Shown here in pieces: positions 9,642 to 59,801 of a stretch of 64,000 bases of DNA. Position 1 is the first letter of the stretch; each line of letters starts with the position of its first letter. The translations under genes and the position numbers were made by a program. Under the pieces are notes generated by a model, which had not been told where the DNA came from, did no database searches, and was given only the letters and a program-made list of their open reading frames with translations. The DNA comes from Reichenbachiella agariperforans (GTDB lineage Bacteria; Bacteroidota; Bacteroidia; Cytophagales; Cyclobacteriaceae): contig NZ_FRAA01000004.1 of the NCBI RefSeq assembly GCF_900142205.1, positions 372,001-436,000 on the forward strand, in the 5' to 3' direction.

Positions 9642-9650
9642 CTTGCTTAA

Positions 9651-10575: not shown

Positions 10576-10695
10576 TTATAAATGATAAATCACTGCTCCA
10601 GTAATTGCAAGAGCAGCTTGATACCACCCTCCTTCAACTTCATTCAATTCAGTTTTTCGCATCTCGACAAGACCCAATTCATTTAAATTTTCCAT
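10576..10695 (-). CDS. Double-glycine-leader peptide F, short core
   Basis: 39 codons from the ATG at 10693-10695. The leader (MENLNELGLVEM, ending NEVEGG, residues 1-23) matches those of A and D. The core is only 16 residues, mostly hydrophobic (AALAITGAVI) and ending YHL. Duplicated segment copy C lies directly upstream. It is either a very short mature peptide or a core that was truncated; no frame beyond the stop continues the pattern obviously. Confidence 0.65.
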   Translation of the reverse strand: MENLNELGLVEMRKTELNEVEGGWYQAALAITGAVIYHL

Positions 10696-10702
10696 TTTGT
10701 AT

Positions 10703-10819
10703 TAAAATTTAAGTTAGACCTACTCTTTGTTTGGGTGGCAGGAAGCACCCTTTATGCTAGCATGCAACTAAGGTAGGTTCGCAAAGTGAAATAAAATTGC
10801 ACTCTGACTCTTTTAACAA
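10703..10819 (-). repeat. Duplicated upstream segment, copy C (truncated)
   Basis: This matches the peptide-proximal 117 bases of copy B almost base for base, then breaks off abruptly at TTTAACAA (10819), where copies A and B go on into the regulator-like frame. The break marks the right edge of the peptide island. The next 150 bases (10820-10969) show nothing recognisable before the serine hydrolase gene. Confidence 0.8.
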
Positions 10820-38115: not shown

Positions 38116-38149
38116 CATACATCATAGTAAAGCGTATCGTTAGCAAATA

Positions 38150-38181
38150 AAAACGGTCTCACTACTGCGAGACCGTTTTAG
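38150..38181 (+). terminator. Terminator after glmS
   Basis: AAAACGGTCTC pairs perfectly (11 bp) with GAGACCGTTTT around an 8-base loop, 34 bases after the glmS stop. The stem carries A- and T-runs on both sides, so it can also serve the convergent HU-like gene. Confidence 0.85.
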
Positions 38182-38219
38182 GGTGTGTAATTAACCATTG
38201 CTTTTCGTTTTAGTTGAAC

Positions 38220-38639
38220 TTATCCTTCTGGTAGAGTCGTCTGGGTACTGTCGAAGACTGTGACCTTTTCGTACTGCAACTTTGGGATCAACCTCTGGAG
38301 TCGTGGACCTGGCCGAAACCTGATTCTCGCACCTTTGATGTCTCCTCTGCGAAACTCCTCCTGTGTATCCGTACCGCTACTACGTAGCGTCAAGAAGAAC
38401 GTACCGAGATTACTCAATCTCACTTTTCTACCATGGGTAAGTTGCATCTCTATCACCTCTATCAAGGTCCCTATAGCTCCTACTACAGTGCCATAGTTGA
38501 GATTGGATACTTTGCTGATGAGCTCAGTCAATTCGTCAAAACTGACATCATCGCCATTGTTGATTCTTGCATAAAACTTTTTGGGGAGCGTAAGATCCGT
38601 AGGATTGATACGCTCAGTTACTTTATATTGTACTGACAT
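38220..38639 (-). CDS. HU-family DNA-binding protein (Bacteroidota histone-like type)
   Basis: 139 residues. It begins MSVQYKVTERINPTD, and the HU fold is marked by DELTELISKVSNLNYGTV and LSNLGTFFLTLRSSG, with the DNA-binding arm RIRFRPGPRLQRLI near the end. This is the longer HU-like subgroup (TIGR01201 type), present in several paralogs per genome. It bends or coats DNA. The 22-bp palindrome array starts about 200 bp upstream of its start codon. Confidence 0.92.
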   Translation of the reverse strand: MSVQYKVTERINPTDLTLPKKFYARINNGDDVSFDELTELISKVSNLNYGTVVGAIGTLIEVIEMQLTHGRKVRLSNLGTFFLTLRSSGTDTQEEFRRGDIKGARIRFRPGPRLQRLIPKLQYEKVTVFDSTQTTLPEG

Positions 38640-39084
38640 GACTATAAAATTTAAAATGTTAAAAAAATATTTGGAATGAATCCTGACTGAGCGCTCGGTG
38701 TGGGATTTGTCAATTACAAGACAAGTATGATGCCAATAACCACCCTAAAAACGTCAAAATATGTTAAAAAAATAAAGGTGTTTTTATACCCTATCGCCCT
38801 CTAAACGAAGATTTTTGTATACATAGGGAGACCTGACACTGAAGTAAGCTTACTATGGCCTTCATGTAAGCTTACTTGAGAGGTCATATAAGCTTACATG
38901 AGACCTGAAGTAAGCTTACATGGGGGCAGAAGTAACGGTTAATCCAAAACCTACTGCCATTGATAGAATTCTGCTAAATGTTTAATGCTTTCAGCACTTT
39001 GGAACACTTTACTATTCCAAGACCAATACAGCAACTAAGATCTTACTCCTGATCACTCAGCCCATCGAGAAGAGTCAATTATTT
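38640..39084. other. Gene-free region upstream of the HU-like gene
   Basis: Contains the phased palindrome array (38844-38941) and two A/T-rich words ATGTTAAAAAAAT about 105 bases apart (near 38655 and 38760), perhaps part of promoter regions. No coding frame is convincing. Confidence 0.6.
38844..38941. promoter_or_regulatory. Phased palindrome array, 4 + 1 sites at 22-bp steps
   Basis: GTAAGCTTAC occurs at 38844, 38866 and 38910, with a one-base variant (ATAAGCTTAC) at 38888, and a degenerate fifth (GTAACGGTTA) at 38932. Starts are exactly 22 bases apart each time, close to two helical turns, so all sites face the same side of DNA. Flanks are partly conserved (CCTGAA or similar before, ATGAGA or similar after). 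This is what a cooperative dimeric regulator or a nucleoprotein organizer would bind. The array lies upstream of the HU-like gene. Confidence 0.85.
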
Positions 39085-39240
39085 GATCAGTCGGTATTTC
39101 TGGGGATAAAAATCAATATTCGACATTGAGCATTCATTATTCCAATCATTTAAATATTACCTCAAAGACTCATAATTGGTGATTATTTTATATAAATAAA
39201 CAACAACGAATATCGAACAATGAATCTTGACTAACGAAAT
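39085..39240. repeat. Dispersed intergenic repeat, copy 1
   Basis: About 156 bp sharing long blocks with 43056-43236: GGGGATAAAAATCAATA, TTCGACATTGAGCATTC, then later CGAACAATGAATCTTGA. The ends are roughly inverted (GACATTGAGCATTC versus the complement of GAACAATGAATCTTG). No open frame. It resembles a miniature inverted-repeat or REP-type element. The remaining gap 39241-39423 shows nothing. Confidence 0.75.
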
Positions 39241-39423
39241 GGTCTACTGCCTCTCCCCCAGAAATACAGAGTGATCCCAATGATTACATGTATTTAGAAA
39301 AACAGATAATCGTTAGATACAGGCCCTAATAAGTGTTTATATCTAATTGATTACCTTTTTGAAACTTTAGTATCTCCGAAGTTGCACCTTGAGATTGTCA
39401 TCAACCGCTCCTGCCGCATTGAT

Positions 39424-43251: not shown

Positions 43252-44424
43252 CTACTTCTCCAACCTATGTATCAGCTCCAGCATTGCTCTACCGTTATGA
43301 TAGGGGCACTTCCAGGGACCCGCTTTGTCTTCGGATTCTACACGCTCTCCTTGTCGTTTGACTCTCCAGAACCATTCGCCTGACGGATCGATGATATTGG
43401 CTTTGGTGAATGTCCATATCTGATTGGCTTGTTCCAAATAATTGTCCTTACCACTAACCTGCCAAGCATTGACGAGTCCCACCAACGCCTCAGCTTGAGG
43501 CCACCAGTGCTTATCCGTATCGGTGAGTCCATGCGGCGATGCTTCGTTCATCAGTCCTCCATCGCTATCCAATCCCTCCATCGCAGCGTCCGCCATTTTC
43601 AGTGCCAGCAGATTAGTTTGCTCTGTCAGTACATCGTCTCCCAGTACCTCGGCAGCCTCCGCCAGCAACCAACTCCCCTCGATATCATGTCCATAAGATA
43701 TCTCGTCCGATAGCAGTGTCCAGTCATCATCAAAGAACAGGTTAAAATGATCACTCGCACTAATAAAAGTACTGCTCATCAGCTCTATGAGGTTTTTCAA
43801 ACGCTGCCCCAATTGGTCATCCTTCCATACACGATACAGGTTGGTATATGCCTCCAGTATGTGAAGGTGCGTATTCATAGTTTTGGTCGCATTCATGTCC
43901 TTTTCACTGAGACGCACATCATCGATCACGCCCCATTCCCTATCAAATGCCTCGTAGTATCCATTGCGAGAGGCATCATAACTATGTTGTTCCAGTAGCT
44001 GGAACAAGCCCTGGGCCAACTTCAACGCATCGCGCTGCGGACTCACCTGATGATACTCAGACAAAGCATAAATCGCAAAAGCCTGTGCATACACCTGCTT
44101 CTTGTCTTCGGTCACCTGCCCCTCACAATCTAACGACCAATACACTCCTCCTTGTTCGGTATCAAAAAAGTAGCTGGTCAGATAATCATACGCTCGGTCA
44201 GCTATCGCCAGGTGTGCAGCATCATTCGTCTGCCGGTAGGCAGCAGAGAAAGTCCATAGAATCCGTGTATTTAGGATGATGGCTTTGTCTGCATCTACAT
44301 GCAACTGCCCCTGTCCATCGATACGACCATAAAACCCGCCACGGGTCTCGTCCACCATCTTCTCTTGCCAAAACGACAATATATTTTCATTGAGCACCGC
44401 TAGTGCTTCTTCCTTTGTGATCAT
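43252..44424 (-). CDS. AGE-family epimerase, probable mannobiose/cellobiose 2-epimerase
   Basis: 390 residues, (alpha/alpha)6 barrel. Family landmarks are GGFYGRIDGQG near residue 27, NTRILWTFSAAYR, GGVYWSLD, DIEGSWLLAEAAEVLG and KHWWPQAEALVG; the catalytic histidines lie in GHDIEGSW and near KCPYHNGRA. The enzyme converts the reducing-end sugar of a beta-1,4 disaccharide at C2. With a GH130 phosphorylase, a GPH symporter and GH26 enzymes in one locus, mannobiose to mannosyl-glucose is the likely reaction (established for Bacteroides fragilis). Last gene of the mannan locus. Confidence 0.92.
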   Translation of the reverse strand: MITKEEALAVLNENILSFWQEKMVDETRGGFYGRIDGQGQLHVDADKAIILNTRILWTFSAAYRQTNDAAHLAIADRAYDYLTSYFFDTEQGGVYWSLDCEGQVTEDKKQVYAQAFAIYALSEYHQVSPQRDALKLAQGLFQLLEQHSYDASRNGYYEAFDREWGVIDDVRLSEKDMNATKTMNTHLHILEAYTNLYRVWKDDQLGQRLKNLIELMSSTFISASDHFNLFFDDDWTLLSDEISYGHDIEGSWLLAEAAEVLGDDVLTEQTNLLALKMADAAMEGLDSDGGLMNEASPHGLTDTDKHWWPQAEALVGLVNAWQVSGKDNYLEQANQIWTFTKANIIDPSGEWFWRVKRQGERVESEDKAGPWKCPYHNGRAMLELIHRLEK

Positions 44425-44449
44425 AAAAATGTAATGCTTTATGCTAAAC

Positions 44450-44466
44450 TAGACCTGACAGGTCTA
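44450..44466. repeat. 17-bp palindrome between two mannan-locus genes
   Basis: TAGACCTGACAGGTCTA is a perfect palindrome with one central base. The word ACCTGACAGGT is common in intergenic hairpins of Bacteroidota, so it may be a repeat rather than an operator. It lies in the 59-base gap before the epimerase gene. Confidence 0.6.
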
Positions 44467-44483
44467 AACTCAACAACCTTAAT

Positions 44484-45512
44484 TTAAACTCTACCTACTT
44501 TTTCCAACAACGCTTTGGTGGCTTTGATACCGTCTGCCTCGGACAGCACATCTCCTTCGTACTCTACACCAATGTAGCCTGTGAACCCAGCATCCTTAGC
44601 GATTTGCATCATTTTGGCAAAATCTGTGTGTGTCTCATTTCCTTCCGCATCAAAATCATGCGCCTTGGCACTCAGCCCCTGAGCAAAGGGAATCAAATCC
44701 TTCACGCCCTGATATCGGTCATACTCGTTAGCACAGCCATCTGCACCACGCTCGATGCAGAAGTTGCCAAAGTCAGGCAATGTACCGCAGTACTCGCTGC
44801 TCACCTGTGAGATCACGTTCGATAGCCACTTGCCATCCGACGAGTATCCGCCATGGTTTTCTACGATGACATGAATACCATTTTGTGCACCGTATTCTGT
44901 GAGACGACCGAGCCCATCGACAGCTGCCGCCCTCACTTCATCGGCTGTGCCGTTGCCTGCCGCGTTAACACGGATGCTATGACAGCCTAGTATCTTGGCT
45001 GCATTGATCCACTTATAGTGGTTCTCGACAGATTGAATTCTAGCTGCTTCATCTAAATCCCCTAGGCTACCCTCCGCATCACACATAATCAACTGGCTAC
45101 TCACGCCCAAATCATCGCAGCGGATTTTCATTTGCTTCCAAAACCCTTCATCAGTTCCTTTGGAGAAGTAAAATGTATTGACATACTCTACTGCATTGAT
45201 CCCGAAATCACGACTCGCCACAAGAGGAAAGTCAACCGCAGCGATATTTCCCTGCAAGAGAGAATCAGGGTCAGATTTCAACCGCTTCCCAAAATCCTCC
45301 CAACTCAACTCACGGCCCTTGCCAAAAATCGAGCGATTGAGTGACCACTGTGCCAGTGAGATATTGAAAAACAGTTCTGCCGTTTCTTCTTCAGCACTTC
45401 CTTTTTGCGCAGAAGGACTGCAGGAATTCAGGATATTCATCCCGCCAAACAAGGCCAAGCCTGTACCTGCTGCTCCGATCAATTTGATCGCTTTTCTTCT
45501 CTCGTTTTTCAT
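44484..45512 (-). CDS. Xylose-isomerase-like TIM-barrel protein, probable Tat lipoprotein
   Basis: 342 residues. It begins with a twin-arginine-type signal (NERRKAIKLIGAAG) and a lipobox-like NSC (cysteine ~31), so it should be exported folded and anchored. The body is a sugar-phosphate isomerase/epimerase (AP_endonuc_2) TIM barrel: HSIRVNAAGNG, HVIVENHGGYS, KAHDFDAEGNE and GYIGVEYEGD carry the metal ligands. Family members include 3-keto-sugar epimerases; no phosphate is expected outside the cytoplasm. It lies 12 bases downstream of the dehydrogenase-cytochrome gene, suggesting joint work on an oxidized sugar. Confidence 0.82.
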   Translation of the reverse strand: MKNERRKAIKLIGAAGTGLALFGGMNILNSCSPSAQKGSAEEETAELFFNISLAQWSLNRSIFGKGRELSWEDFGKRLKSDPDSLLQGNIAAVDFPLVASRDFGINAVEYVNTFYFSKGTDEGFWKQMKIRCDDLGVSSQLIMCDAEGSLGDLDEAARIQSVENHYKWINAAKILGCHSIRVNAAGNGTADEVRAAAVDGLGRLTEYGAQNGIHVIVENHGGYSSDGKWLSNVISQVSSEYCGTLPDFGNFCIERGADGCANEYDRYQGVKDLIPFAQGLSAKAHDFDAEGNETHTDFAKMMQIAKDAGFTGYIGVEYEGDVLSEADGIKATKALLEKVGRV

Positions 45513-45524
45513 TATTGATGCTTA

Positions 45525-48500
45525 TTAGTTGAGGTGAAATTTTATTTGATCTATTCCTATTGGCACTGAAGTCTCTTGAGATTTCAGTACAAAATAGATA
45601 TCGCTGGCTCCTTTAGCCTCCAAACGCATATCTGCTTGTTTATTCTTAGCACTCAATTCGCAGGTGGAAAGAAGTTCTCCATCTACACTGCCTCGGCGTA
45701 GTTCTATCAACACTGATTCATCAGTTCCCGTAGCTGCGGTGATCTGATAGCTTAATTCTAGCCGCTTAATATTAGTAAGGTCAATGTCCTCGAATGCAAA
45801 ATAGCTCTCCTTGCCCTCTCTGCGCAAAAAGCGACGGTCTCCCTCTTCAATACTTCCTTCCACCACAAAACCACTTTTATGATCCGCCGCTTCGGCTTGT
45901 TTGACTGGCAGTGTCAGGGTCACTTCCATGAGAGCCGTCAACGAAGCAGTGTTTTTCACCCCACCGTGATCCGTATATTTTGCTTCAAAACGATAATTGG
46001 CTTGGCTTCCTTTAGGAGTCGAAATCGATCCTTTCGTTTTAATTTTCTCTGCTTCTTGCGCAGGTGCATCGTTGACGGAAAAGATAAAATCTACAATTTC
46101 CTTGGCCGCTTTGACCGTGAAATCTGGGTGCGCTGGCATGGCACCATCTCCCCAGTTACCCACACCTCCACCGATTATTTTCTTTGCGAGAACCTCTTTG
46201 GCAATGTAGTCTTTGTCATAGCGCTCCGCTACCTCATGGAAGCTTGGCCCGATTGACTTCTCGTTGATTTTGTGACAGCTACGGCAATCACTCGACTGTA
46301 TCAGCCGCAATCCCGGAGCGATTCCATCCTGACTCATTCCATCCAATAAGGCCAAACTAGCCGGCGCACGGTTGTCACTGCCTTCGTAATGCGTCAGACT
46401 AATCGCCACCTCATTTTCATTAACCCCACTTCCTATCGTGCCGTCTTCTTTGTCATTCACCACTAAGTTGTATTTGATCGAACGACCCGGCCAGTAAAAA
46501 CTGCTATTGTCTGCAAATTCGAAAGTTAACTCTGGCTTAGCATTCCCTGCAATCAAGCTGGCACGACTGGTCGCACTGGCATTGTGATTGTCCTTGACGA
46601 CCAACAGTACTTCGTACTCTCCTGGCTCAGTCAGCGTCGCAGTGGCTTCAACTCCCGTCAGGTTAATTTCTTTTGGCCCTTCGATGAGCCATATATACTC
46701 TAGCTCGTCCTGCTCATCCAAGTCTGAGCTACCCTTGGCGGAAAAATTCACCTCTAAAGGAACGCTCCCATTGGTCGCCGACAGCTCTATGTTCGCCTCT
46801 GGTGCGCGGTTGCCATACGTAAAATCCAGACGAATGAGCTTCGAATCATGATTGTCCGTAAAGTAGCCTATCCCATACTCCAGTACATAGAGTGCCCCAT
46901 CAGGACCAAAGGTCATGTTGATCGGGGATGCCAAAACAGACTTGTCCAAGAATGGCTCAATGGACAGGAAGTTACCTTCCTCATCGAGAGAAATCACCAT
47001 AATCCAATCTCTGGCCCAATCAAAAGCAAAGAGTTTGTTGTGGTAGTAAAGTGGGAATTGAAATCCCTTTCGTTTCATCTCATAATAGTCATAGACATCA
47101 CCCACCCCAACAGAGCGCGAGCCCTTGCCAACTCTTGGAAACTGCTCCGTCTCATCAAAAGTATAGTACAGCATTGCTGGTATCGCAGGAGGCAAATCCT
47201 TTGCTCCTGTGTTATTCACGGAAGTATTGACTGGATGCTGCGGATCGAATTTTGCTCCCAAGTCTCCTGTCTCAAAATCATAGTCTGCGTAGGCTTTGTT
47301 GTCAGCATTGAAATAAGGCCAGCCGTAGTTGCCCGGTGCTTTGGCGATGTTGATCTCGTCATGTGCCGATGGGCCTCTTTCGCTGGTGACATTGCCATCC
47401 GGCCCGACATCTCCCCAAAACAACCAATTTTTCTTTTTGTTCATCCCAAGGGTAAAAGGATTTCGAGCACCCATCACGTAGATTTCTGGGCGACCCTCTG
47501 AACCATCTTTGGCAAATAAATTGCCATCAGGAATGGTATAACTGCCATCAGCTTCAGGATGGATTCTTAATATTTTTCCTCTCAGGTCAAGCGTGTTCGA
47601 GGAAGATTTTTGTGAATCCCAAGCCGAACGACCGGGACGCTCATCCAGCGGCGTAAACCCATCTGAATCTCTAGAGAAAGTATCATCTCCCGTACTCAGG
47701 TATAGGTTTCCTTCTAAGTCTATCTCCAAATCTCCCGCCGAGTGACAGCACTCATCTCGCTGTGTAGGTATCTCGATTATCACGATTTCTGACTCATGAT
47801 CCAAGCCCTCTGGCGTCAAGCGAAAACGAGACACATGCTGCTTGGGTTCATCTCCGGGAGGAGAATAAAAAACATAAGCCCACTGGTTGTGTTTGAAATC
47901 AGGGTCTAAAACGAACCCCAAAAGACCGTCTTCTTCGCCCGTATAAACTTCCAAACTATCAATCTCTTGGTAATCATCGGTACGCGGATTGTAGAGATTG
48001 ATGGTTCCCTTTCGTTCGATCCAGTAGACCAAGGACTCTTCCGTCACGGCGATACACATGGGCTCACGCAACGGTGCAACCAGCACTTGTCTTTTCAACC
48101 GATCCGGTGCAGGTTTTTCAGGCGTGGTGACTTGGCTGTAATCCAAATCCGCTTGACGCAAACTTAGGTTCTGCTCATCGCAGTTGATTAGGACTTGCTC
48201 TGACGCAAAGAAAGGTAACAATTGCCCCCAATTGTAGATCGTGTCTTGACATACAAATGTCACCTCTCCGCCCGCTTCCAAATAACGCTCGATGCTGTTT
48301 CGCTCATTAAAATCCAAAGTAGCGGGAGCTGACGCTACCAACAAATGACTCGCCATGACCAAATCATCGGGTCGCAACTGAGTCACCACCATCACCGAAT
48401 CAAACCCTAGCTCCTGAGTTTGCGAAGCGACATCTGCTCGCACGACTAAAAGCGAAGACTGCTGCTCACAACTCCCTAACACCCACACACACAACACTGC

Positions 48501-48548
48501 CATTGGGAATAATATCTGTTTCCAACTTCCCTTCATTCTATACTTCAT
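45525..48548 (-). CDS. Glucose/sorbosone-dehydrogenase-like lipoprotein fused to PKD, cytochrome c and C-terminal beta domain
   Basis: 1007 residues. Lipobox GSC (cysteine ~27); an ~80-residue remnant resembling a ThuA-like fold; a beta-propeller of the PQQ glucose/sorbosone dehydrogenase type (about 130-560; CCHSAGDLEID, NPFTLGM, GPSAHDEINIA, GDVYDYYE); a PKD domain (about 575-665); a cytochrome c domain with CRSCH heme site and methionine ligand in GAMPAHP (about 755-830); and a C-terminal carbohydrate-binding-like domain (about 870-1007). It would oxidize a sugar at the cell surface or periplasm and pass electrons to its own heme. Common in Bacteroidota, but unusual inside a mannan locus. 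Confidence 0.88.
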   Translation of the reverse strand: MKYRMKGSWKQILFPMAVLCVWVLGSCEQQSSLLVVRADVASQTQELGFDSVMVVTQLRPDDLVMASHLLVASAPATLDFNERNSIERYLEAGGEVTFVCQDTIYNWGQLLPFFASEQVLINCDEQNLSLRQADLDYSQVTTPEKPAPDRLKRQVLVAPLREPMCIAVTEESLVYWIERKGTINLYNPRTDDYQEIDSLEVYTGEEDGLLGFVLDPDFKHNQWAYVFYSPPGDEPKQHVSRFRLTPEGLDHESEIVIIEIPTQRDECCHSAGDLEIDLEGNLYLSTGDDTFSRDSDGFTPLDERPGRSAWDSQKSSSNTLDLRGKILRIHPEADGSYTIPDGNLFAKDGSEGRPEIYVMGARNPFTLGMNKKKNWLFWGDVGPDGNVTSERGPSAHDEINIAKAPGNYGWPYFNADNKAYADYDFETGDLGAKFDPQHPVNTSVNNTGAKDLPPAIPAMLYYTFDETEQFPRVGKGSRSVGVGDVYDYYEMKRKGFQFPLYYHNKLFAFDWARDWIMVISLDEEGNFLSIEPFLDKSVLASPINMTFGPDGALYVLEYGIGYFTDNHDSKLIRLDFTYGNRAPEANIELSATNGSVPLEVNFSAKGSSDLDEQDELEYIWLIEGPKEINLTGVEATATLTEPGEYEVLLVVKDNHNASATSRASLIAGNAKPELTFEFADNSSFYWPGRSIKYNLVVNDKEDGTIGSGVNENEVAISLTHYEGSDNRAPASLALLDGMSQDGIAPGLRLIQSSDCRSCHKINEKSIGPSFHEVAERYDKDYIAKEVLAKKIIGGGVGNWGDGAMPAHPDFTVKAAKEIVDFIFSVNDAPAQEAEKIKTKGSISTPKGSQANYRFEAKYTDHGGVKNTASLTALMEVTLTLPVKQAEAADHKSGFVVEGSIEEGDRRFLRREGKESYFAFEDIDLTNIKRLELSYQITAATGTDESVLIELRRGSVDGELLSTCELSAKNKQADMRLEAKGASDIYFVLKSQETSVPIGIDQIKFHLN

Positions 48549-48733
48549 AAATTCCGATCAATCATTGATGTAATGTCTATATGACGTTTTCTGACCGAGA
48601 TCAAACCCCTCGTTTCACTTTTTCAAAATCATCACTTTCCTAAAGATGGTAAATAATGCTGGCATGTATGGAACTATGATACAAACCTCCCTGTTTTTTG
48701 AGCGATCTACACTAGCTTATCCCCTCGCCCGAC

Positions 48734-50119
48734 TCACCTTTCGTTCAATTCATTTTTAACGTCTGCCATGAATTTTTCATCCAGTTTATACATCCGCATA
48801 AAACCAAAAGAAGCCAAAGCGCCCAAGCCAGCAATCACACTGATCATGAGCCGTATGCCCAACAATGCATCCTGACTCTGCTCCACATTGGGTTCGAACC
48901 CGAACCCTGCAAGCAACCAGCCTGTGATGGCACCACCGATCGTCCAACCAAATTTCTGTGACATGGACGAGGACGAAAATACCAATCCTGTGGCTCTTCG
49001 TCCTGTTTTCCACTCCGAGTAATCAGCAATATCCGCATACATCGACCAACCCAATGGCAGAATAACCCCCGCAGTGATCCCTATCAATACATTCAATCCG
49101 AAAATCAAAAAGATCTGGTCTGATGGAATCAAAAAGAAAACGAAACTCAACCCTGCTGACAACAAAGCGGCATAACTAAAAGTGGTCTTCTTGCCCAGTC
49201 GCGCAGCAATCGGTTTGGCTAATAGTACCCCGACAATGTTAGTCGCCAACCACACAGACATATACACCGACGAAAGCACTGTAGAAGTCAGTTCATATTT
49301 CGTCCCAAAAAATGACAGGCTTTGGTCTTTGATGTAATATTTGAAATAATAGAGAATAGACCCATCTCGGAGCGAATTGAATATCAAAATGGAAATATTG
49401 GCCCCTAGCATGATAAACCAAGGCGTGTTTTTGCTCAAATCGTTGAGGTCATCTTTGAGGCTGTTGCTTTCGTCTTTGGGTGGGGCGAGTCGTTCTCTCG
49501 TCCACAGGAAAGTAAGGAAAAACAAAATCGCTGCTACCGTCGCATAGATCGCTATCGTATACTGAAATCCAGTTGCCTGATTGGTCGTCTCACTAAAGTA
49601 AGCCACCAGCGCATTGGCTGTGGCAGTCACAAACAACCCACCAGAAAATGCACCAATAAACCTCCATGATGCCAAAGAAGTCCGCTCCACACTGTCGTTG
49701 GTCATCACCGCCATCAGCGAACCGTAGGGTACGTTGACCGCTGTGTACACCATCATCATCAACGAATAAGTGATGTAGGCATAGATGAGTTTGCCATCAG
49801 ACGAGAGATCAGGAGTTGTAAAAGTCAGTATGCCGATGATCCCAAAAGGAATCGCCACATAGAGCAAATACGGTCTGAATTTACCCCAGCGGCTTTTGGT
49901 GCGATCGGACACCAATCCCATAATCGGGTCATTCAGCGAATCCCAGACACGAGTGACTAGAAACATAGTCCCCACAGCTGCCGCAGATATCCCAAAGACA
50001 TCTGTGTAGAAAAACAGCAAAAACATGGAGAACAGCTTCCAAAACATAGACGAAGCAAAGTCGCCAAAACTGTAGGCGACTTTTTCTCTAAAACTTAACT
50101 TGTGTGATATCTCTGACAT
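48734..50119 (-). CDS. GPH-family glycoside:cation symporter (MFS fold)
   Basis: 461 residues with 12 membrane spans. GPH (MelB-like) landmarks are EKVAYSFGDFASSMFWKLF at the N-terminus, VWDSLNDPIMGLVSDRTKSRWGKFRPY, and VPYGSLMAVMT. It most likely takes mannobiose or short manno-oligosaccharides from periplasm to cytoplasm with H+ or Na+. It starts 6 bases after the GH130 stop, so transport and phosphorolysis are co-expressed. Confidence 0.93.
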   Translation of the reverse strand: MSEISHKLSFREKVAYSFGDFASSMFWKLFSMFLLFFYTDVFGISAAAVGTMFLVTRVWDSLNDPIMGLVSDRTKSRWGKFRPYLLYVAIPFGIIGILTFTTPDLSSDGKLIYAYITYSLMMMVYTAVNVPYGSLMAVMTNDSVERTSLASWRFIGAFSGGLFVTATANALVAYFSETTNQATGFQYTIAIYATVAAILFFLTFLWTRERLAPPKDESNSLKDDLNDLSKNTPWFIMLGANISILIFNSLRDGSILYYFKYYIKDQSLSFFGTKYELTSTVLSSVYMSVWLATNIVGVLLAKPIAARLGKKTTFSYAALLSAGLSFVFFLIPSDQIFLIFGLNVLIGITAGVILPLGWSMYADIADYSEWKTGRRATGLVFSSSSMSQKFGWTIGGAITGWLLAGFGFEPNVEQSQDALLGIRLMISVIAGLGALASFGFMRMYKLDEKFMADVKNELNER

Positions 50120-50125
50120 TCTGAT

Positions 50126-51316
50126 TTATTTAAGACCGTTGGCTTTTAGGAAAGCCAGGTTCTTGTCTATCAATTGATTTCTAGTTTGGACACTAGCATA
50201 AGTTCTGAGTCCATCCTCTGGTGTATTCTTACAGTAGTCTACCAACTGTGCGACTGTAGAGGTTGCTACATGCAATCGCGTATCTGACGATGCATAGTAG
50301 ATCAGTACCTCCCCATTGTCTTTGGCAATCCATCCGTTGGTAAATAGCACATTGGATACATCACCGACCCGTTCTTCATCTTGTGGAGACATGAAATGCC
50401 CAGCGGGTCTATGAATCACCCTAGACGGATCATCCAGTGCAGTCATGAACATGTAAAGCACATAGCGCAATCCCGCTGCAGTATTGCGCACACCATGTGC
50501 GAGGTGCAGCCACCCTTCTTCTGTTTTTATAGGCGCTGGGCCTTGACCGTTCTTTACTTCCTTGATCGTGTGATAGGTTTTGGGGTCGATGATTTGCTCA
50601 TCGCTCACCTTGGCGTTTTCCATGTTGTCGGTCAATCCCCAGCCAATGCCTCCGCCTTTTCCTGCATCGATGAACCCATCCTGTGGCCGGGTGTACAATG
50701 CATATTTACCGCCAATGAACTCTGGGTGCAACACAACATTTCGTTGCTGGCTGCCACCTGAATCGAGATCGGCCAATCGCTCCCAAGTCACTAGGTCTTT
50801 GGTACGAGCAATTCCACACTTGGCTGTAGCGGCTGACTGATCTGCCTCTGAGGCAGTGTGATCTCTACGCTCCGTGCAGAACAGTCCATAAATCCAGCCA
50901 TCCTCATGTCGAGTCAACCGCATGTCGTAGACATTGGTATCAGGCTCATCTGTCTCCGGGAGTGTGATGGGATGATCCCAAAAACGGAAATTATCTATCC
51001 CGTTTTCACTCTCCGCTATCGCAAAGAAAGATTTCCTATCATCACCTTCTACTCTGACGACCACACAGTACTTTCCTTCAAAAAAGATGGCACCAGCATT
51101 GAAAGTCGCATTGACTCCCTGACGCTCGGCGAGGAACGGGTTGGTCTCTGGGTTGAGATCATAGCGCCAGATGACTGGCGTATGCTTATGGGTCAAAACA
51201 GGATTTTTGTAGCGCTGGATGATGCCATTGGTTTCGATCTGTGGCTCATTTTTTTGACTCAATAATGTATCGTGGTTGGCCAGTAGTTTCTTGACCTGTT
51301 CTATGCTTGCACTCAT
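50126..51316 (-). CDS. GH130 4-O-beta-D-mannosyl-D-glucose phosphorylase
   Basis: 396 residues, typical of GH130 subfamily 1. Diagnostic segments are [38 protein letters not shown] and NFRFWDHP; the catalytic aspartate lies in [17 protein letters not shown], and [21 protein letters not shown] is also typical. It splits mannosyl-glucose with phosphate into mannose-1-phosphate and glucose. Cytosolic, no signal peptide. It completes the mannobiose pathway with the epimerase at 43252-44424. Confidence 0.95.
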
Positions 51317-51402
51317 TTGTTTATATGCTATTCGTTTGATTCAAGTAGAAAAAGGAAACGCTCACAAGGAGTAAGCAATTCCCTATACGTTTACTAATTA
51401 TA

Positions 51403-53151
51403 CTATTTCTTTGGCGTCAATATGTAGATCATTTCGTCCCAGCTCTGGAGCGATACCTTGGGGATGACCAAACCTGACTCTCCTGCGGCGATACTACCAT
51501 TCGTGATGAAAGATCGATCGTCTGGATTGAAACGTTTGATATCGTAGCTACCCACTCGCAGATCCATCACCAAATCCGATTGGAGTCGCTCCGTTTGGCT
51601 ATTGAGTACTCCGACAAAAATTTTCTCCCCGCACTTCACACTATAGGCTTCTAATCCTATGGACGCGACCGCTACGGGCTTGAATGCTCCGTCGCCTGCC
51701 GCCAGCATCATGTCACTAATCATGCGCACGCTCTGAAAATAAGGCGTCATGTTGCGGTCATCAAAAAACTCCCACCACCACGTCATCGGCAGGATGGGCG
51801 TCGGGTTGAACAGACCATACCACAGTCCTCTCTTGTAGTCATAGTCAGACTCCTCTGCGATGGTAGAAAAGTCCAAGTTCCAGTCCCACTCATACCCAAA
51901 CTCTCCCCACACGAAAGGCTTGCCATACTCCTCGGCATACTGATTGGTCAGAGCAGGGATTTGTTCTGTTTTCTTGTAAATATGACGCTGGGCTATGTCA
52001 ATATTTTTGACATCAAACATCCCGTCAATCTCTCGATGCGACACACTGGTCGTCACGATGTGACCGTAAGGATCAATGGACTTGATGTAGTTGCTCATCT
52101 CCTCATGCCAAGCCGTCACGTGCTCATGAGGGATTCTGATACTGTCATGCGGTGTACGCGTAAAAACCGAATTGTCGATCTCGTTGAAAAACTCCCATGC
52201 CCCGATGTGCGTACTGTAGCCCCATCTCGCCACGAGGAAACGAAACTTGTTTTTGGACATCTTGCGTGCGTCCTCATTGGTAAAGAAATCCGTTGGCGTC
52301 TCGGCGGGACCTCCATTGGCGGTATTGTAGCGGTAGTTTTCCCAGCCACCCCCATCGATCAAGGGACCGTGGGTATTCATCGCCAGCATCATGTACAGAT
52401 CTAGCGAATCAATCATATCCACCAGTTCGTCCATGCGCTGGATTCCCTGAGGATGAAAGTAGGCATCTGAGTCCGTGTAGCGATCTGTGTGCTTGGACAC
52501 CTTGGGCCACTCTATCGGCAGATCCCAAGCACACATCCAGGTACGGAAAAAGTTGGCACCATTTTCGGATAATGTAGGGAGCAAATAATCATAGGTATGT
52601 TTAGGATTTTCATAGTTGCGAGACTCCCAGCCTACGTTCTCTCCAATCCCACGAAAAGGCTTTCCACTGTCAAATTTCAACGTCCAAAAATCATTGACAT
52701 GAAGAAATCCGTCAGAGCTTGAACCAGATACTTCAAATGTTGATTTAGCACTAGACAATGACATATCAGCCTGCGTCAGCTTGAAGTAATAACTATAGCT
52801 CCCCACCTCTGCAGCGGCAAACCTCGCCTTCCATAGTGACTGCTGCTCACCGCTATTTCGCTCAAAATAACAAGGCAAAATCAAATCCTCACCTAAAGGG
52901 GTCGTGAGAATCATGTCCAACATCACCTCGTCTTGATCATAGGCATTAACATACTGGGTATTGACTATGATCTCAAATTCTGCTTTTTCATATTGTTTGA
53001 TATCTCCGCTAATCAATCGATAGCTATCGATCAGCCCGCCTCCAGGGCAGCCCTGCAACAACACCATACTGACCATGACAAGGCTGATCAGCAGTATTTT
53101 TCTCCATCTTTTCATATTACTCATCTTATTCTTTCTTAACCCCATTTTCAT
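51403..53151 (-). CDS. GH5-like glycoside hydrolase lipoprotein with DUF5060-type N-terminal domain
   Basis: Up to 582 residues. The most upstream ATG lies 9 bases after the preceding stop; starts 9 or 12 codons further in would give a cleaner signal peptide. Lipobox LLQGC, then CPGGG. An N-terminal beta-sandwich of DUF5060 type (about 40-145) precedes a (beta/alpha)8 barrel with FFRTWMCAWDLP, acid/base Glu in WEFFNEIDN and nucleophile Glu candidate in VWGEFGYEW, and a small C-terminal beta domain. Family is GH5-like in clan GH-A; exact family is uncertain. Beta-mannan or a manno-oligosaccharide is the likely substrate. Confidence 0.8.
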   Translation of the reverse strand: MKMGLRKNKMSNMKRWRKILLISLVMVSMVLLQGCPGGGLIDSYRLISGDIKQYEKAEFEIIVNTQYVNAYDQDEVMLDMILTTPLGEDLILPCYFERNSGEQQSLWKARFAAAEVGSYSYYFKLTQADMSLSSAKSTFEVSGSSSDGFLHVNDFWTLKFDSGKPFRGIGENVGWESRNYENPKHTYDYLLPTLSENGANFFRTWMCAWDLPIEWPKVSKHTDRYTDSDAYFHPQGIQRMDELVDMIDSLDLYMMLAMNTHGPLIDGGGWENYRYNTANGGPAETPTDFFTNEDARKMSKNKFRFLVARWGYSTHIGAWEFFNEIDNSVFTRTPHDSIRIPHEHVTAWHEEMSNYIKSIDPYGHIVTTSVSHREIDGMFDVKNIDIAQRHIYKKTEQIPALTNQYAEEYGKPFVWGEFGYEWDWNLDFSTIAEESDYDYKRGLWYGLFNPTPILPMTWWWEFFDDRNMTPYFQSVRMISDMMLAAGDGAFKPVAVASIGLEAYSVKCGEKIFVGVLNSQTERLQSDLVMDLRVGSYDIKRFNPDDRSFITNGSIAAGESGLVIPKVSLQSWDEMIYILTPKK

Positions 53152-53160
53152 ATCGGATAA

Positions 53161-54120
53161 TTACCATCCAGGCATTTCATCGCGTGTCACTATTCTTTTG
53201 TTCTTATATAATTTTTTGATGTCGTCTATCGAGTTGCTTTCCTTGACCAGCTCTGCCCATGGCATGAAGAAAATCCACCTAGGTTGAGCTTTGAGATGCG
53301 CCGACGTGGGCAGCTTAGAACACTCTCCGATGGCCATGGGCTTGTCTCCCGCGATAGGCAAAATGTACTCATACCATTTTTGATCAAAACCCTGGTCATA
53401 AACATCAAAGGCAAATACGTCCCAGTATTCGTCTCCAGGATTGTACTCTTCAAAATCCCAACTCATGTCCTGCATGTCCCATACCCAGATGAGATTATCA
53501 AGCCCTTTCACATCCGTGAAATAATCATGTGTGATACGGTACAGCTTGGCAGTTCCCTCTGCTCCAGGACGTCCTCCCCACCAAAACAGCCCTTGGTTCA
53601 TTTCGTGCAGCGGACGAAACATCGCGACCACTCCATGGTCTTTTAGATCTTGCAAATACACTGCGATTTCGTCCATACGCTTTTTCCACGCCTGATTCAG
53701 TTTAGTACCGTCAGTTGTCAATTCTAGCCACTGCTCATCTGTCAGTTGGGCATTGAGCAGTCCTGGATCCCAGCCACATGGCTCACCCTGATCAGGAGGA
53801 CATGCGTGCCACATGAGATTGATCATGGCACCATTGTCCCATTGCTCTTTGGCCTCTGCGATCATGGTAGCTCGCTCATCGATGTTGTCTTGCTGAAACA
53901 GGAAATCACCGCTCCATAGGGCAGGATACTTGCCAGTCGTTTCATAGATAAATTCTGTCCACCTATCTGGATCAGCATTGGGCTCTTTGTTGTGCTGACC
54001 CGCCAAAGTTTTCTTTCCAGATATTTCGTAGAGGTAGTCCATCACTTTTGACTTTTGTGCGGACATAGAGGATGCTACCAAGAGGAGCATCATGAGTAGG
54101 GTTATTTTTCCTTTGTTCAT
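53161..54120 (-). CDS. GH26 beta-mannanase/mannobiohydrolase-type enzyme, single domain
   Basis: 319 residues. A type I signal peptide (cleavage near SMSAQ, no lipobox) implies a soluble periplasmic enzyme. Catalytic acid/base E173 lies in FRPLHEMNQG and nucleophile E266 in MAIGEC, the GH26 pattern; WHACPPDQGEP and GLFWWGGRPG are also typical. No binding module or sorting signal. It is a close relative of the catalytic half of the next gene upstream, so the two arose by tandem duplication and then diverged in location. Confidence 0.93.
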   Translation of the reverse strand: MNKGKITLLMMLLLVASSMSAQKSKVMDYLYEISGKKTLAGQHNKEPNADPDRWTEFIYETTGKYPALWSGDFLFQQDNIDERATMIAEAKEQWDNGAMINLMWHACPPDQGEPCGWDPGLLNAQLTDEQWLELTTDGTKLNQAWKKRMDEIAVYLQDLKDHGVVAMFRPLHEMNQGLFWWGGRPGAEGTAKLYRITHDYFTDVKGLDNLIWVWDMQDMSWDFEEYNPGDEYWDVFAFDVYDQGFDQKWYEYILPIAGDKPMAIGECSKLPTSAHLKAQPRWIFFMPWAELVKESNSIDDIKKLYKNKRIVTRDEMPGW

Positions 54121-54192
54121 TCTGTATTTTTATGGGAGGATAAGAGGTCGGGAACTAAAACAAAACCCAACCTCTCTCGCTCTGTCTATTTA

Positions 54193-55884
54193 TTACTTCT
54201 CCTTTAACAATTTGCCCGAAAGTATCTGCGTCGCACTCACCAATCTAAAATGATATATCCCTGGTGCAATAGCAGCTCCGTGGCTATCTAAGCCTTTCCA
54301 GACTATAAAATCCTGCGCATCCCGTCTATCCGCTGCGGTGAACCTCCTCAGCTCACTGCCACTCATATCATAGATGCTTAGCTCAAAATCCCCCTCTCCC
54401 ACCACTGGTATCCGTACTTGGTCACTGAATGGATTAGGGTATGCGCCCAATTCAAGGGTTAGATCTGTTTTTTCAGCTCTCCTTGCTCCGCTATTGGGAG
54501 TCAAGGACCACCAGTTAATATTCCAGCCACCAGTGAGGGCTTTGATTCCAAAGTTCTGCGTACCTGCGCTGAGGTTGACGGTCTGGTAAATAGTCGTCCA
54601 TGACTGGTATCCACCCGTTGAAGGCACAGCGACAGAGCCATAAGACGCACCCCCAGCTTGCTCGAACTGAATCGTTCCTCCAGCTGAACTCGCTACGCGA
54701 TAAGCTATCGTATAAGCACCCGAAGAAGGCACTGTGATGCTGTTGTAAGTCATCCAGTCTCCGTTATCGATCCATCCGACATTGAGATTTCCTCCACCGG
54801 GATCGCTCGTTGTTTCGGTCTGCACTCCGCTCATGTTGTCATAGTCCTCGGCTTGGATGTACTGTGTACCGCCTCCGCCTGATCCTCCATTTTGCCAAGT
54901 GCCTGTGCCATTCCAGCCAGGCATCTCGTTGAGTGTGAGCACACGGCTCGACCAGTAGATGTCTTGTATTTTTTGATTGCTATTCGCAGAAAATGTCAAC
55001 TCAGACCAGCCCATAAAGAACGTCCACAAGGGCTGATTGTTGAGCAAATTGACAGCAGGTAAATCTTCGCATTCTCCGATACCTATCGGTCTTCCGCCCG
55101 CTTTAGCCACCATGGCATTGTACTTGGCCGTGCTGTATCCCTGACCATCACTCCAATACATATCCATCGTCAGTACGTCCCAGTAGTTCCATCCCGGATC
55201 GTAGTTGTATAGATCGTTAGCCAGGCCGCTGTAGTCTTGCATGTTCCACACCCAAATCAGGTTTGACAACCCTTTCGTATTGGTCATATAGTCATGGGTG
55301 ATTTGGTAAAGTCTCGCGGTACCATTTGCCCCAGGCCGTCCGCCCCACCAGAACATCCCTTGATTCATCTCGTGCAACGGTCTAAAGAAGACTTCCACCC
55401 CAGCATCTTCGAGTTGCTGCAGGTAATAGGCTACATCATCCATGCGACTCTTCCAAGAATTGTTGATGGCAGTACCATCGGTAAGCAACTGATCCCACTC
55501 CCACTGACTCATCTGACTGAGCACACCATTTGAGTCCCAATAGCAAGGTTCTCCTTTGGCAGGGTTACAGGCGTGCCACATGATGTTGACCATCGCGCCA
55601 TTGTTCCATTCTTGGATGGCCTGATCTATCATCGTTTGTCTGTTAGCAATTTCATTAGGTTCGAATTGAAAATCCGCACTGTACAAACCCGGCCATTGCC
55701 CGATAATCCCGTTGAGCTGCTGGCTGTAGCCATTCGGGTTAGCATTAGGTTGACGGTTGTGCATCCCACCTATCGTTTTCGTCCCTTGAATACTGTACAA
55801 ATAATTCAGTGATTCAAAGGGTGTCTGCGCATTGAGCGTCAGACATAGTGGTATCAGTGCAATAAAAAGTTTTAATGCTTTCAT
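54193..55884 (-). CDS. GH26 beta-mannanase with CBM6 and T9SS sorting domain
   Basis: 563 residues: signal peptide (~1-20), GH26 domain (~21-325; acid/base E172 in RPLHEMNQG, nucleophile E271 in IGIGEC), a glycine-rich linker (GGSGGGG), a CBM6-type module (~341-470; IQAEDYDNMSGVQ, VGWIDNGDWMTY) and a type IX secretion C-terminal domain (~480-563; GAYPNPFSDQV, SIYDMSG, PGIYHFRL). It is thus exported to the cell surface or medium to attack polymeric mannan. The T9SS itself is not in the window. Confidence 0.95.
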   Translation of the reverse strand: MKALKLFIALIPLCLTLNAQTPFESLNYLYSIQGTKTIGGMHNRQPNANPNGYSQQLNGIIGQWPGLYSADFQFEPNEIANRQTMIDQAIQEWNNGAMVNIMWHACNPAKGEPCYWDSNGVLSQMSQWEWDQLLTDGTAINNSWKSRMDDVAYYLQQLEDAGVEVFFRPLHEMNQGMFWWGGRPGANGTARLYQITHDYMTNTKGLSNLIWVWNMQDYSGLANDLYNYDPGWNYWDVLTMDMYWSDGQGYSTAKYNAMVAKAGGRPIGIGECEDLPAVNLLNNQPLWTFFMGWSELTFSANSNQKIQDIYWSSRVLTLNEMPGWNGTGTWQNGGSGGGGTQYIQAEDYDNMSGVQTETTSDPGGGNLNVGWIDNGDWMTYNSITVPSSGAYTIAYRVASSAGGTIQFEQAGGASYGSVAVPSTGGYQSWTTIYQTVNLSAGTQNFGIKALTGGWNINWWSLTPNSGARRAEKTDLTLELGAYPNPFSDQVRIPVVGEGDFELSIYDMSGSELRRFTAADRRDAQDFIVWKGLDSHGAAIAPGIYHFRLVSATQILSGKLLKEK

Positions 55885-56046
55885 AATAGTTAATCATAGT
55901 AATTTGGTCTTTGTCCGAACCCTATTGATTCGGCTCATGCGTGTGTTAATCCATGACCGGTTTAGATCGCTCTTCCCGAAGGATCAAAAAGCAATGCAAG
56001 AGGTCTTTCATCACCAAAACCACTCATGGACATCATTGTAGGCGTA

Positions 56047-57246
56047 CTATTGCACTGTAATCCCCTCGACTGCCTCATACATGTCAGGCAAGTCTGAACT
56101 AAATAGCATATAGTCGCTCTCATAGAATGTCACAAAGTCATTGGCAGAACTATGCCCTATCCATGGACCATAGTAGTGGTACCCAGACCCTGTCGGATCA
56201 TACTTATTTCTCCACATCACGACAAGACTCACCCCCTTGCCATACATGGCAGACATGATCTCCTGTGTCCAATAATCCGTGTATTCTTTACCATCTTTTC
56301 TCACCCCTTCTATCCCGGTTTCGGTCACACCACATGGTTTGAGTTTTTCTTTGGATAGCGTAGCGAGATTTCTAGAGTTGGTGGCAAGTGACTTGGTATT
56401 GGTACCGTGGTAGCTGTCCATCCCGATAAAATCGACATAGTCATCTCCTGGCCACCTGTAGAGCAGATTGTCCACCGTGCCTTCACTATCTATCTGTGGC
56501 GAGATCGCAAAAATCAGATTATGTACACCCATTTCGAGTGTCAGATAGTCAACCGTAAACTTCCAAAAAGAGATAAATTCTTCCTGCGTCGTACAGCTGC
56601 TACCCCACCATGACCAACTCTGCGTGTGCTCGTGATAGGGACGAAAAATGATCGGAATCAATTTCCCATTTTCATCCTTCAGACTCGTCACAAAAGTCGC
56701 CAATCTATCCAGCCACACTTTGTAAGTCATATTGACTTCACTGCCCTCTTCTAAGATACCCTTGACGACCGTGTTGTCAGAGTTGTCCCACGAGTCTCCA
56801 CCCGTTTTAGGGTTGTTGAGATGAAGGCAAGCTGTAATCACTTCTCCGCGCGCTCTTGCTTCCATGATCGTGCGTTTTCTATCATCATTGAGATCACTGG
56901 ACAGATATCTTTCGTCCATGACCTCCGCAAAATCCACACTGAATACGGCTGGGTAGTCACCACAGACTTCTTTGGTATCGGATCGTCCTGACTCTGCATA
57001 CCATTCGCGACCGTAGAGCAAGTCATCGTGATGCCCAAACATCATTCCCCTACTTTGCACATCCCACAGGTTGGCATAGAGCGCTTTGGTCTCGTCCGTG
57101 GCACTCTTGTCTACCAACTGGAGCGTCACGGGTTCTACTGATCCACCATCCCCGTCTCCATCAGGATCGACGGTAGACTCATCTGTCGAGCAAGCCATCA
57201 AAAAGGCTGAAGCTAAGATCAAAAGGCTATAAGTAAACTTTGTCAT
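56047..57246 (-). CDS. GH26 beta-mannanase, surface lipoprotein
   Basis: 399 residues from the ATG at 57244-57246. This start is preferred over the longer frame reaching 57294 because it gives a proper lipoprotein signal (MTKFTYSLLILASAFLMAC). The residues after the lipid cysteine are acidic (STDESTVDPDGDGDGG), as in Bacteroidota surface-exposed lipoproteins. GH26 motifs are IFRPYHEHTQSWSWWG with the acid/base Glu and CGVTETGIEG with the nucleophile. It differs clearly from the two tandem GH26 genes and probably makes the first cuts at the surface together with SusCD. Confidence 0.92.
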   Translation of the reverse strand: MTKFTYSLLILASAFLMACSTDESTVDPDGDGDGGSVEPVTLQLVDKSATDETKALYANLWDVQSRGMMFGHHDDLLYGREWYAESGRSDTKEVCGDYPAVFSVDFAEVMDERYLSSDLNDDRKRTIMEARARGEVITACLHLNNPKTGGDSWDNSDNTVVKGILEEGSEVNMTYKVWLDRLATFVTSLKDENGKLIPIIFRPYHEHTQSWSWWGSSCTTQEEFISFWKFTVDYLTLEMGVHNLIFAISPQIDSEGTVDNLLYRWPGDDYVDFIGMDSYHGTNTKSLATNSRNLATLSKEKLKPCGVTETGIEGVRKDGKEYTDYWTQEIMSAMYGKGVSLVVMWRNKYDPTGSGYHYYGPWIGHSSANDFVTFYESDYMLFSSDLPDMYEAVEGITVQ

Positions 57247-57331
57247 ATCGGTGTTCTTCTTCGAGTAAATGTGAATAAAGCTAGCCTCCATCATATACGA
57301 AAATCATGATGGAGGCCTGCTTTCATATCGT

Positions 57332-58270
57332 TTATTGTTTGGTCAAATCAATCCAAAACCTCCTCGGTTTCTTCACGAATTTGTCATAGTCACTGTAGAT
57401 GTTGTCCCAGTCATCCGTACCATTGATATCAAAGGCCAGTGCTTGCTCTGTGGTCACTTTGGACAGTCCATTTCCGAGATCCTCAGTGCCTGCAGCCACC
57501 AACTCGGCTGTACTCGTACTCCCATCTGCGAAGGTGAAAATGATTCTATCCAAGGCGTAGTTTCGCTCCCAAGTACCCGCTGCTTTTGGCACAGTGCGGT
57601 AGAACGGGTTGACATCCGTCACAGGATCCAATACATACTGAAAATCCGCATAGAGGCCATCAGCACCTTCATTGTTGGTAATGGCACCATAGGTATTTCC
57701 CTCGGCCGTAATCCCCGTCATCTCGAAAGTAAGCGTATTGTCTAGCTCTGCCTCTGGGCCACCCGTTTCAGGCCATATCCAAGGTTTTGATGTCATAGGC
57801 AATACGCCTCCGCCACCGTACTCTGGGCCCGTACCACCATAGACGATCAAGTCCGTGATGTCATAGGTTCCTAGCAGAGTCTCTTCGAACGAAAAGACCT
57901 TGATGGTGTAGTCTCTGGACTTACCAGTAGGCGATGTGACTGTCAACAGTGCAGTCTGATCGGAGTTCTCGAAATTGAGTGATTCGCCCTGCTCCACACT
58001 CGAGGTAGCCCCATAAGAAGTCTGAATACTCTGTAGCACGATATTGCTTAGATCAGGGATCTCACTGACATTGATCGTCAATTCGATCGTTCCCGTTGAT
58101 TCATCTACTCTCGTGATCGTAGGTATCCCTACTTGGTTCTCAAATTTGAGATTGATGACACTACGTTCGTTGTTCCAATCACCCGCTTCGATATCTTCTA
58201 GCGGATCCTTGATACAGGCCATATTGGCCACTAGCAGTATACTGAAAAGTATATATGTTATCTTTTTCAT
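57332..58270 (-). CDS. Putative surface glycan-binding lipoprotein of the mannan locus
   Basis: 312 residues. Lipobox MAC (cysteine ~19) is followed by an acidic stretch (IKDPLEDIEAGD) suggesting surface exposure. A DUF5018-like beta domain (about 35-135) ends in a Ser-Pro-Thr-Gly turn (TSPTGKSRDYTIKV), and a second all-beta domain contains many tryptophans and tyrosines that could bind sugars. Position directly after susD is where SGBPs are usually encoded. Function is inferred from position and architecture. Confidence 0.75.
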   Translation of the reverse strand: MKKITYILFSILLVANMACIKDPLEDIEAGDWNNERSVINLKFENQVGIPTITRVDESTGTIELTINVSEIPDLSNIVLQSIQTSYGATSSVEQGESLNFENSDQTALLTVTSPTGKSRDYTIKVFSFEETLLGTYDITDLIVYGGTGPEYGGGGVLPMTSKPWIWPETGGPEAELDNTLTFEMTGITAEGNTYGAITNNEGADGLYADFQYVLDPVTDVNPFYRTVPKAAGTWERNYALDRIIFTFADGSTSTAELVAAGTEDLGNGLSKVTTEQALAFDINGTDDWDNIYSDYDKFVKKPRRFWIDLTKQ

Positions 58271-58295
58271 ATTTAGTCTTTTTGATGTGCGCGAA

Positions 58296-59789: not shown

Positions 59790-59801
59790 CTTTGTCTTTC
59801 T

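Follow-up and report, generated by a model that had tools for sequence, protein, structure and literature searches.

A palindrome array with a 22 bp period beside an HU-HIG gene of Reichenbachiella agariperforans and its linkage to the gene family in Bacteroidota

A stretch of 64,000 nucleotides of the R. agariperforans genome (referred to as the window) raises the question of which protein might read a series of short palindromes that are repeated in strict register beside an HU-like gene, and with what outcome. The array (38844-38941) is made up of four 10 bp palindromes and a degenerate fifth, with starts exactly 22 bp apart and partly conserved 12 bp spacers. Reading of the sequence gave GTAAGCTTAC at 38844, 38866 and 38910, ATAAGCTTAC at 38888 and the degenerate palindrome GTAACGGTTA at 38932. 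Tandem Repeats Finder called this array with a period of 22, and the phased palindrome array of the original prediction was thus confirmed by the sequence and by this program. Near matches to the array 10-mer (two mismatches or fewer) numbered 25 in the window compared with 21.9 expected, which is not unusual; the unusual feature of the array is its phasing and not the count of the 10-mer. A second dyad at the spacer centre was weak (1.92 of 5 at offset 11 versus 3.65 at the motif, the motif phase having been chosen as the best and the mean of the other 21 offsets being about 1.4). The features of the locus are listed below.

38145..38944, no strand assigned: cassette (the array with its leader, the gene and the terminator-like repeat), found also at the homologous locus in genus member G001
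38150..38179, no strand assigned: terminator-like inverted repeat AAAACGGTCTC/GAGACCGTTTT, read from the sequence, in the interval that separates glmS from the HU-HIG gene
38220..38639, minus strand: HU-HIG gene, 139 amino acids (PF18291, E 2.5e-27; TIGR01201, 72.6 bits)
38640..38843, minus strand: leader between the HU-HIG gene and the array, with blocks conserved in an alignment of eight close paralogs
38844-38853, 38866-38875, 38888-38897, 38910-38919 and (degenerate) 38932-38941, no strand assigned: palindrome array of period 22, from the sequence and repeat finding

The window protein was matched by the PF18291 profile over residues 1-124 (95.8 bits, cut-off 26.2) and by TIGR01201 (72.6 bits, curated cut-off 68.6); by these profile matches, the protein adjoining the array is an HU-HIG (PF18291/TIGR01201) and not a canonical HU. 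A Foldseek search with a model of the window protein (pLDDT 89.5) returned 4fmr, a putative DNA-binding protein of Bacteroides vulgatus, at E 4.2e-6 and then HU and IHF entries, and the best solved relative by sequence was an HU (5eka). The model suggests an HU fold with an N-terminal extension. The genes around the array are glmS, the HU-HIG gene and a DUF4249 gene; no motor NTPase, partition NTPase or rep gene was found beside 38844-38941. The leader blocks conserved among the eight close paralogs are TTTTTTAAC, TTGGCAT, GAGCGCTC and AGGATT, and the leader (38640..38843) probably holds the promoter. The inverted repeat at 38150..38179 is a putative terminator; a similar inverted repeat stands behind the L020 paralog. 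Window 39085-39280 is a MITE-like intergenic repeat with 21-nucleotide inverted arms (39085-39105 and 39256-39276, 90% complementary), copies of which were seen in the same genome at L046 (86.8% over 205 columns) and L016 (80%). Further along, judging by ORF translations, window 43252-63188 resembles a polysaccharide-utilization locus that contains mannanase-like ORFs and a SusC/SusD-like pair.

Within the genus, a query with the window protein gave seven HU-HIG matches in its own genome (G000), eight in G001, eight in G003 and 0-2 in the other five members. The eight close paralogs of G000, G001 and G003 (67-100% identical) all had a periodic array no more than 900 bp upstream (8/8), that of L057 being weak at lag 22 (6.0) and clear at lag 44 (11.5), and the more distant HU-HIG loci examined in these three genomes all had an upstream array at lag 22 (10/10). 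Close-clade arrays are located about 195-300 bp upstream of the start, on the far side of the conserved leader. Conservation upstream of the HU gene, by which the original prediction was to be checked, was thereby borne out: in two other genus members an upstream array accompanies every one of the five close homologs (67-87% identity; L057 clearly only at lag 44), and absence of the array from close relatives with a conserved HU gene was not observed. Both HU-HIG genes of Reichenbachiella versicolor lacked an array; two loci of genus member G007 coincide in their coordinates with loci of R. versicolor DC003 (NZ_QFZQ01000001.1).

The palindrome differed with the HU-HIG gene that it accompanied (GTAAGCTTAC; GTAACGTTAC; CTTGCGCAAG; GTTGCGCAAC mixed with GGTGTACA; ACACACGTGT; CCACACGTGG or CCACAGGTGG; CCCGCGCGGG; GATACGTATC; GATATATATC), and one paralog with another motif adjoins ACACGTGT arrays; the layout of a 10 bp palindrome plus a 12 bp spacer was constant across the motifs. 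Of eight genus members, three (G000, G001 and G003) had matches to the array patterns of four motif families and the other five had none; the reversed controls gave 0 matches. Where no relative of the window protein was found (G002 and G006), 0.8 Mb contained no lag-22 array compared with about 8.9 expected from the density in the own genome. CCTGCGCAGG arrays were not found in G003, where no HU-HIG of the CCTGCGCAGG-motif clade was found. GATATATATC arrays occur at seven places in the own genome, with no HU-HIG gene of the matching clade there among the matches listed. Both G000 and G001 contain CTTGCGCAAG arrays, although a gene linked to the exact CTTGCGCAAG motif was seen in G003 only. Mixed arrays soften this last exception, since given these the close clade may serve both the GTAAGCTTAC and the CTTGCGCAAG motif.

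Linkage across the phylum was assessed in two sets of loci. The first (56 HU-HIG loci) consisted of the genus matches of the window protein plus the best 30 loci of each wider search; the fragments L067, L069 and L025 and the duplicates L092, L129, L133, L140, L145 and L148 were left out, and L103 and L109, which encode longer proteins with other repeats nearby, were kept. A lag-22 array (score of at least 7.5) was found at 35 of these 56 loci (best 30 per search), which are not phylogenetically independent (L022, L062 and L063, for example, encode identical proteins); the harmonic lag 44 followed with 28 and the next lag, 21, with 7. Canonical HU loci with a lag-22 array numbered 0 of 25 (among the best 30 matches of the search). 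The second set, of named organisms, had a lag-22 array at 28 of 50 HU-HIG loci (harmonic 44, 18; lag 21, 9; lag 43, 8), or at 27 of 44 after removal of the six loci that were also in the first set (L257-L260, L266 and L267). Like the first set, the second is not phylogenetically independent. When all two-turn lags (21-23 and 42-46) were taken together, arrays were present at 43 of 56 (best 30 per search) and 37 of 50 HU-HIG loci, compared with 5-11 of 56 (best 30 per search) and 2-5 of 50 for four control lag sets and with 0 of 25 at canonical HU (among the best 30 matches of the search). Loci below the lag-22 threshold numbered 21/56 (best 30 per search) and 22/50.

The array-bearing named loci include those of Capnocytophaga catalasegens, C. 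cynodegmi, Bergeyella zoohelcum, Kordia aestuariivivens and Prolixibacter bellariivorans. In 22 of the 28 the array lies 7-122 bp after the stop codon and in six it lies upstream, the distance to the HU-HIG gene varying on either side. The palindromes differ between HU-HIG clades across the phylum (the proteins of L091, L122 and L139 were not used in this motif-clade comparison). The array is linked to HU-HIG genes family-wide, more than to canonical HU; the association of the array with an HU-like gene in the original prediction is thus strongly supported and is general for the HU-HIG family. The HU-HIG homologs on 12 plasmid and seven phage records were distant (about 25-38% identical), and 28 candidate stretches on viral contigs gave none that was confirmed. 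Bacteroides/Parabacteroides plasmid loci carry short repeats with lags of 20 and 21 (L307), 23 (L308) and 22 (L309), which were not counted because they are weak or distant from the gene. A plasmid or phage origin was rejected because the intergenic DNA had no plasmid match and these homologs are distant. The HU genes of L307 and L309 (Bacteroides finegoldii plasmid records) are part of a recurring module that also has DUF4248, a BT4734/BF3469 family protein or dnaB, small proteins and an N-acetylmuramoyl-L-alanine amidase.

The arrays of the own genome extend far beyond the HU-HIG genes. A pattern of two sites at 22 bp spacing (three mismatches or fewer) had 40 forward matches versus 0 for the reversed control, and exact GTAAGCTTAC occurred 23 times in 5.03 Mb versus four times for its reversed control; 18 of the 23 lie in arrays, two in 22 bp register inside CTTGCGCAAG arrays and three are isolated. 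A scan of 1.256 Mb (C8 1-800,000 and C9 1-456,000, with 2,548 masked bases and a score of at least 9.5) yielded 14 lag-22 arrays, a density of roughly one in 90 kb; no other lag between 15 and 60 gave more than 4 except the harmonic 44, with 12. These 14 arrays, with 2.6-4.75 of 5 palindromic pairs per unit, belong to several palindrome families. None is inside a recognizable gene (five are crossed by chance-looking frames of 93-131 amino acids), and by the nearest ORFs of at least 90 amino acids 11 lie between tandem, two between convergent and one between divergent genes. Two adjoin an HU-HIG gene; no HU-HIG match was found within 2.5 kb of the other 12. Nine copies of one six-unit array were observed in L006-L013, sharing flanking repeats of about 130 to more than 500 bp, and two six-unit copies in L011 are 524 bp apart. 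At C9:365391-365576 a 42 bp tandem repeat (about four turns) with a AAAAATACGTTTTT-like palindrome is perhaps a related array with a longer unit.

Gene and array were then compared as a block between genomes. The interval 38145-38944 was 79.8% identical over 822 columns to the G001 locus of the 87%-identical homolog, with nothing else in common in the 9 kb and 17 kb compared. Other stretches shared around gene and array were found between L008 and L038 (1,039 columns plus one 57 bp match), L151 and L161 (799) and L152 and L164 (1,139); 1.4-1.5 kb of L150 recur in L162 and L163, and L152 and L159 also have a neighbouring gene in common. No consistent ends common to the cassettes were found. Downstream of glmS, the own genome has gene and array, G001 an array without the gene and G003 a broken HU-HIG frame with no lag-22 array; within 1.5 kb of glmS neither gene nor lag-22 array was found in G002 or G004-G007. 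A repeat with lag 21 (score 8.0) lies about 1.1 kb from glmS in G004. These states of the glmS site and the shared blocks demonstrate, at the level of sequence comparison, that acquisition, movement and loss affect gene and array together, as a cassette of about 0.8 kb. By the same comparison, an array can outlive the local HU-HIG gene. Beside the site of a G003 HU-HIG cassette that is missing from the window, one stretch of L155 (G003) resembles window 9566-9902 and 10627-10819, which looks like another dispersed repeat. The HU-HIG cassettes at L159 3861-7490 and L164 5469-7124 adjoin Cas9- and restriction-modification-like genes (by eye, from translations).

HU proteins are dimers that contact DNA with β-arms. 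Among seven close paralogs with different motifs the arm (residues 85-104) was the most variable region (permutation p 5e-5), with 1.8 extra residues per column compared with about 0.6 elsewhere in residues 1-126; the same seven also show variability at residues 113-126, and surface loops vary anyway. The two-turn phasing of the palindromes together with the variable arm leads to the proposal that each dimer reads its own palindrome and that neighbouring dimers stack. We give about an even chance to the array being a putative cognate binding-site array of the neighbouring HU-HIG, with dimers side by side on one face. An HU-HIG homodimer would bind each 10 bp palindrome, reading it through the variable β-arms; sites placed every two helical turns would align adjacent dimers on one face of the DNA, and the aligned dimers would form an ordered, probably bent, nucleoprotein patch. 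On this reading, the dispersed intergenic arrays that have no gene would either serve the same proteins as additional targets or be left over from lost cassettes. The outcome would most likely be an architectural complex, with regulation of its own gene in addition wherever the array is upstream. The proposal is weakened by the 12 sampled arrays with no HU-HIG match within 2.5 kb, by the GATATATATC and CTTGCGCAAG arrays in genomes where no matching gene was found, by the HU-HIG loci below the lag-22 threshold, including both genes of R. versicolor, and by the varied side and distance at which arrays stand.

The cooperative binding of dimers on one DNA face that had been predicted fits the helical phasing; HU-HIG as the binder, the cooperative patch and its outcome are what we infer. 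Autoregulation, also proposed originally, is weakened as a general role by the position of the array downstream of the gene in 22 of the 28 named loci. Since arrays occur both before and after the gene, and at numerous sites elsewhere, autoregulation by itself is unlikely to account for them fully; the main alternatives are that the role is architectural or that the cassette is selfish. A more far-reaching joint reading, which we put forward tentatively and regard as doubtful in its entirety, is that HU-HIGs are phylum-wide sequence-specific architectural proteins, each clade having a palindrome code read by a fast-evolving β-arm and the gene travelling with its own phased array; the dozens of arrays would be addresses that are wrapped or bridged, and several such mobile chromosome-organizing systems would act in parallel in a genome.

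The arrays, with or without the HU-HIG gene, might instead be a selfish or mobile REP- or MITE-like repeat that multiplies in intergenic DNA, HU-HIG helping to copy or move it instead of acting for the host. In favour are the recurrence of whole arrays, almost unit for unit, at many sites, the placement of gene and array as a block with unrelated DNA on both sides, gain and loss beside glmS, and a Y1 transposase gene near the HU-HIG gene at C14:6.6 kb. This reading is nevertheless unlikely: Y1 transposase matches number only four in the genome, with one of them close to an HU-HIG array and none on the contig of the window, the cassettes lack consistent common ends and a purely selfish repeat does not predict phylum-wide linkage to one protein family with clade-specific palindromes. 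REP/RAYT was rejected as a general explanation, the Y1 transposases being few and not generally linked. The distance of the close-clade array from the start (about 195-300 bp upstream, beyond the conserved leader) would suit operators of another transcription factor, such as an enhancer-binding protein, with the HU-HIG genes merely among its targets. We consider this quite improbable, as sigma-54-like (-24/-12) sites in the window were not above shuffles (0.805 of which reach the score; the close clade does conserve TTGG(C/T)AT blocks), arrays are downstream of the gene in other clades and between convergent genes in two of the 14 sampled cases, and a single factor leaves the different palindrome of each HU-HIG clade unexplained.

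A centromere- or origin-like site, at which HU-HIG and array would form a segregation or replication complex as at parC-type repeats, would be similar in layout, with phased sites in tandem next to a candidate binder's gene. It is very unlikely in view of the dozens of dispersed arrays per genome and of the array at 38844-38941, which has no motor NTPase or rep gene beside it; the iteron-like element among the original suggestions is likewise not upheld, with arrays dispersed over the chromosome and glmS, HU-HIG and DUF4249 as neighbours. As RNA, both strands of the array folded much better than shuffles (z of -7.6 and -8.6), as would be expected of an RNA hairpin array or terminator cluster; a neutral minisatellite is a related alternative. 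Phased palindromes fold by construction, however, and the best fold was one long hairpin rather than a chain; a chain of RNA hairpins was rejected on the triviality of this strong folding. Rfam gave no match at the gathering score in eight array loci, and a neutral repeat leaves one period over several motif families and the absence at canonical HU unexplained. We regard this group of explanations as highly improbable.

HU-fold proteins are classic examples of weak sequence specificity. If the cognate-array proposal is true, close HU-HIG members standing beside different, strictly phased arrays would be a natural system for an architectural protein that gains or changes specificity. A function would be provided for an uncharacterized family of Capnocytophaga, Bergeyella, Kordia, Tannerella, Prolixibacter and others, and many unexplained intergenic repeats would be accounted for. 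For each array-bearing family member the binding site is predicted to be readable from the adjacent DNA.

We know of no report of a cognate array for the HU-HIG clade of the HU/IHF superfamily (PF18291, TIGR01201), of which the adjacent protein is a member. The HU clades were reportedly named by Burroughs et al. in 2017. Passages in PMC5906684 and PMC8195603 cite the paper on HU clades. By titles and the beginnings of abstracts, no paper on such arrays was found in the openly licensed literature. The window HU-HIG has the same fold as canonical HU and IHF. HU has weak sequence specificity and IHF binds single asymmetric sites; unlike many HU-HIG loci, those of canonical HU had no array (0/25, among the best 30 matches). 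In parC centromeres and plasmid iterons, sites in tandem and in helical phase stand next to the gene for the protein that binds them, and to our knowledge no such arrangement has been described for the HU superfamily; the HU-HIG arrays differ from parC and iterons in being dispersed on the chromosome, in their many palindrome families and, at the window array, in having no NTPase or rep gene. With REP/RAYT and MITE-like repeats they share dispersed intergenic palindromes in many copies, and they differ from these in their strict 22 bp phasing and in the few Y1 transposases, which are not generally linked. The window array and the similar arrays, with other palindromes, beside many HU-HIG genes across Bacteroidota point to an undescribed system of protein and DNA site.
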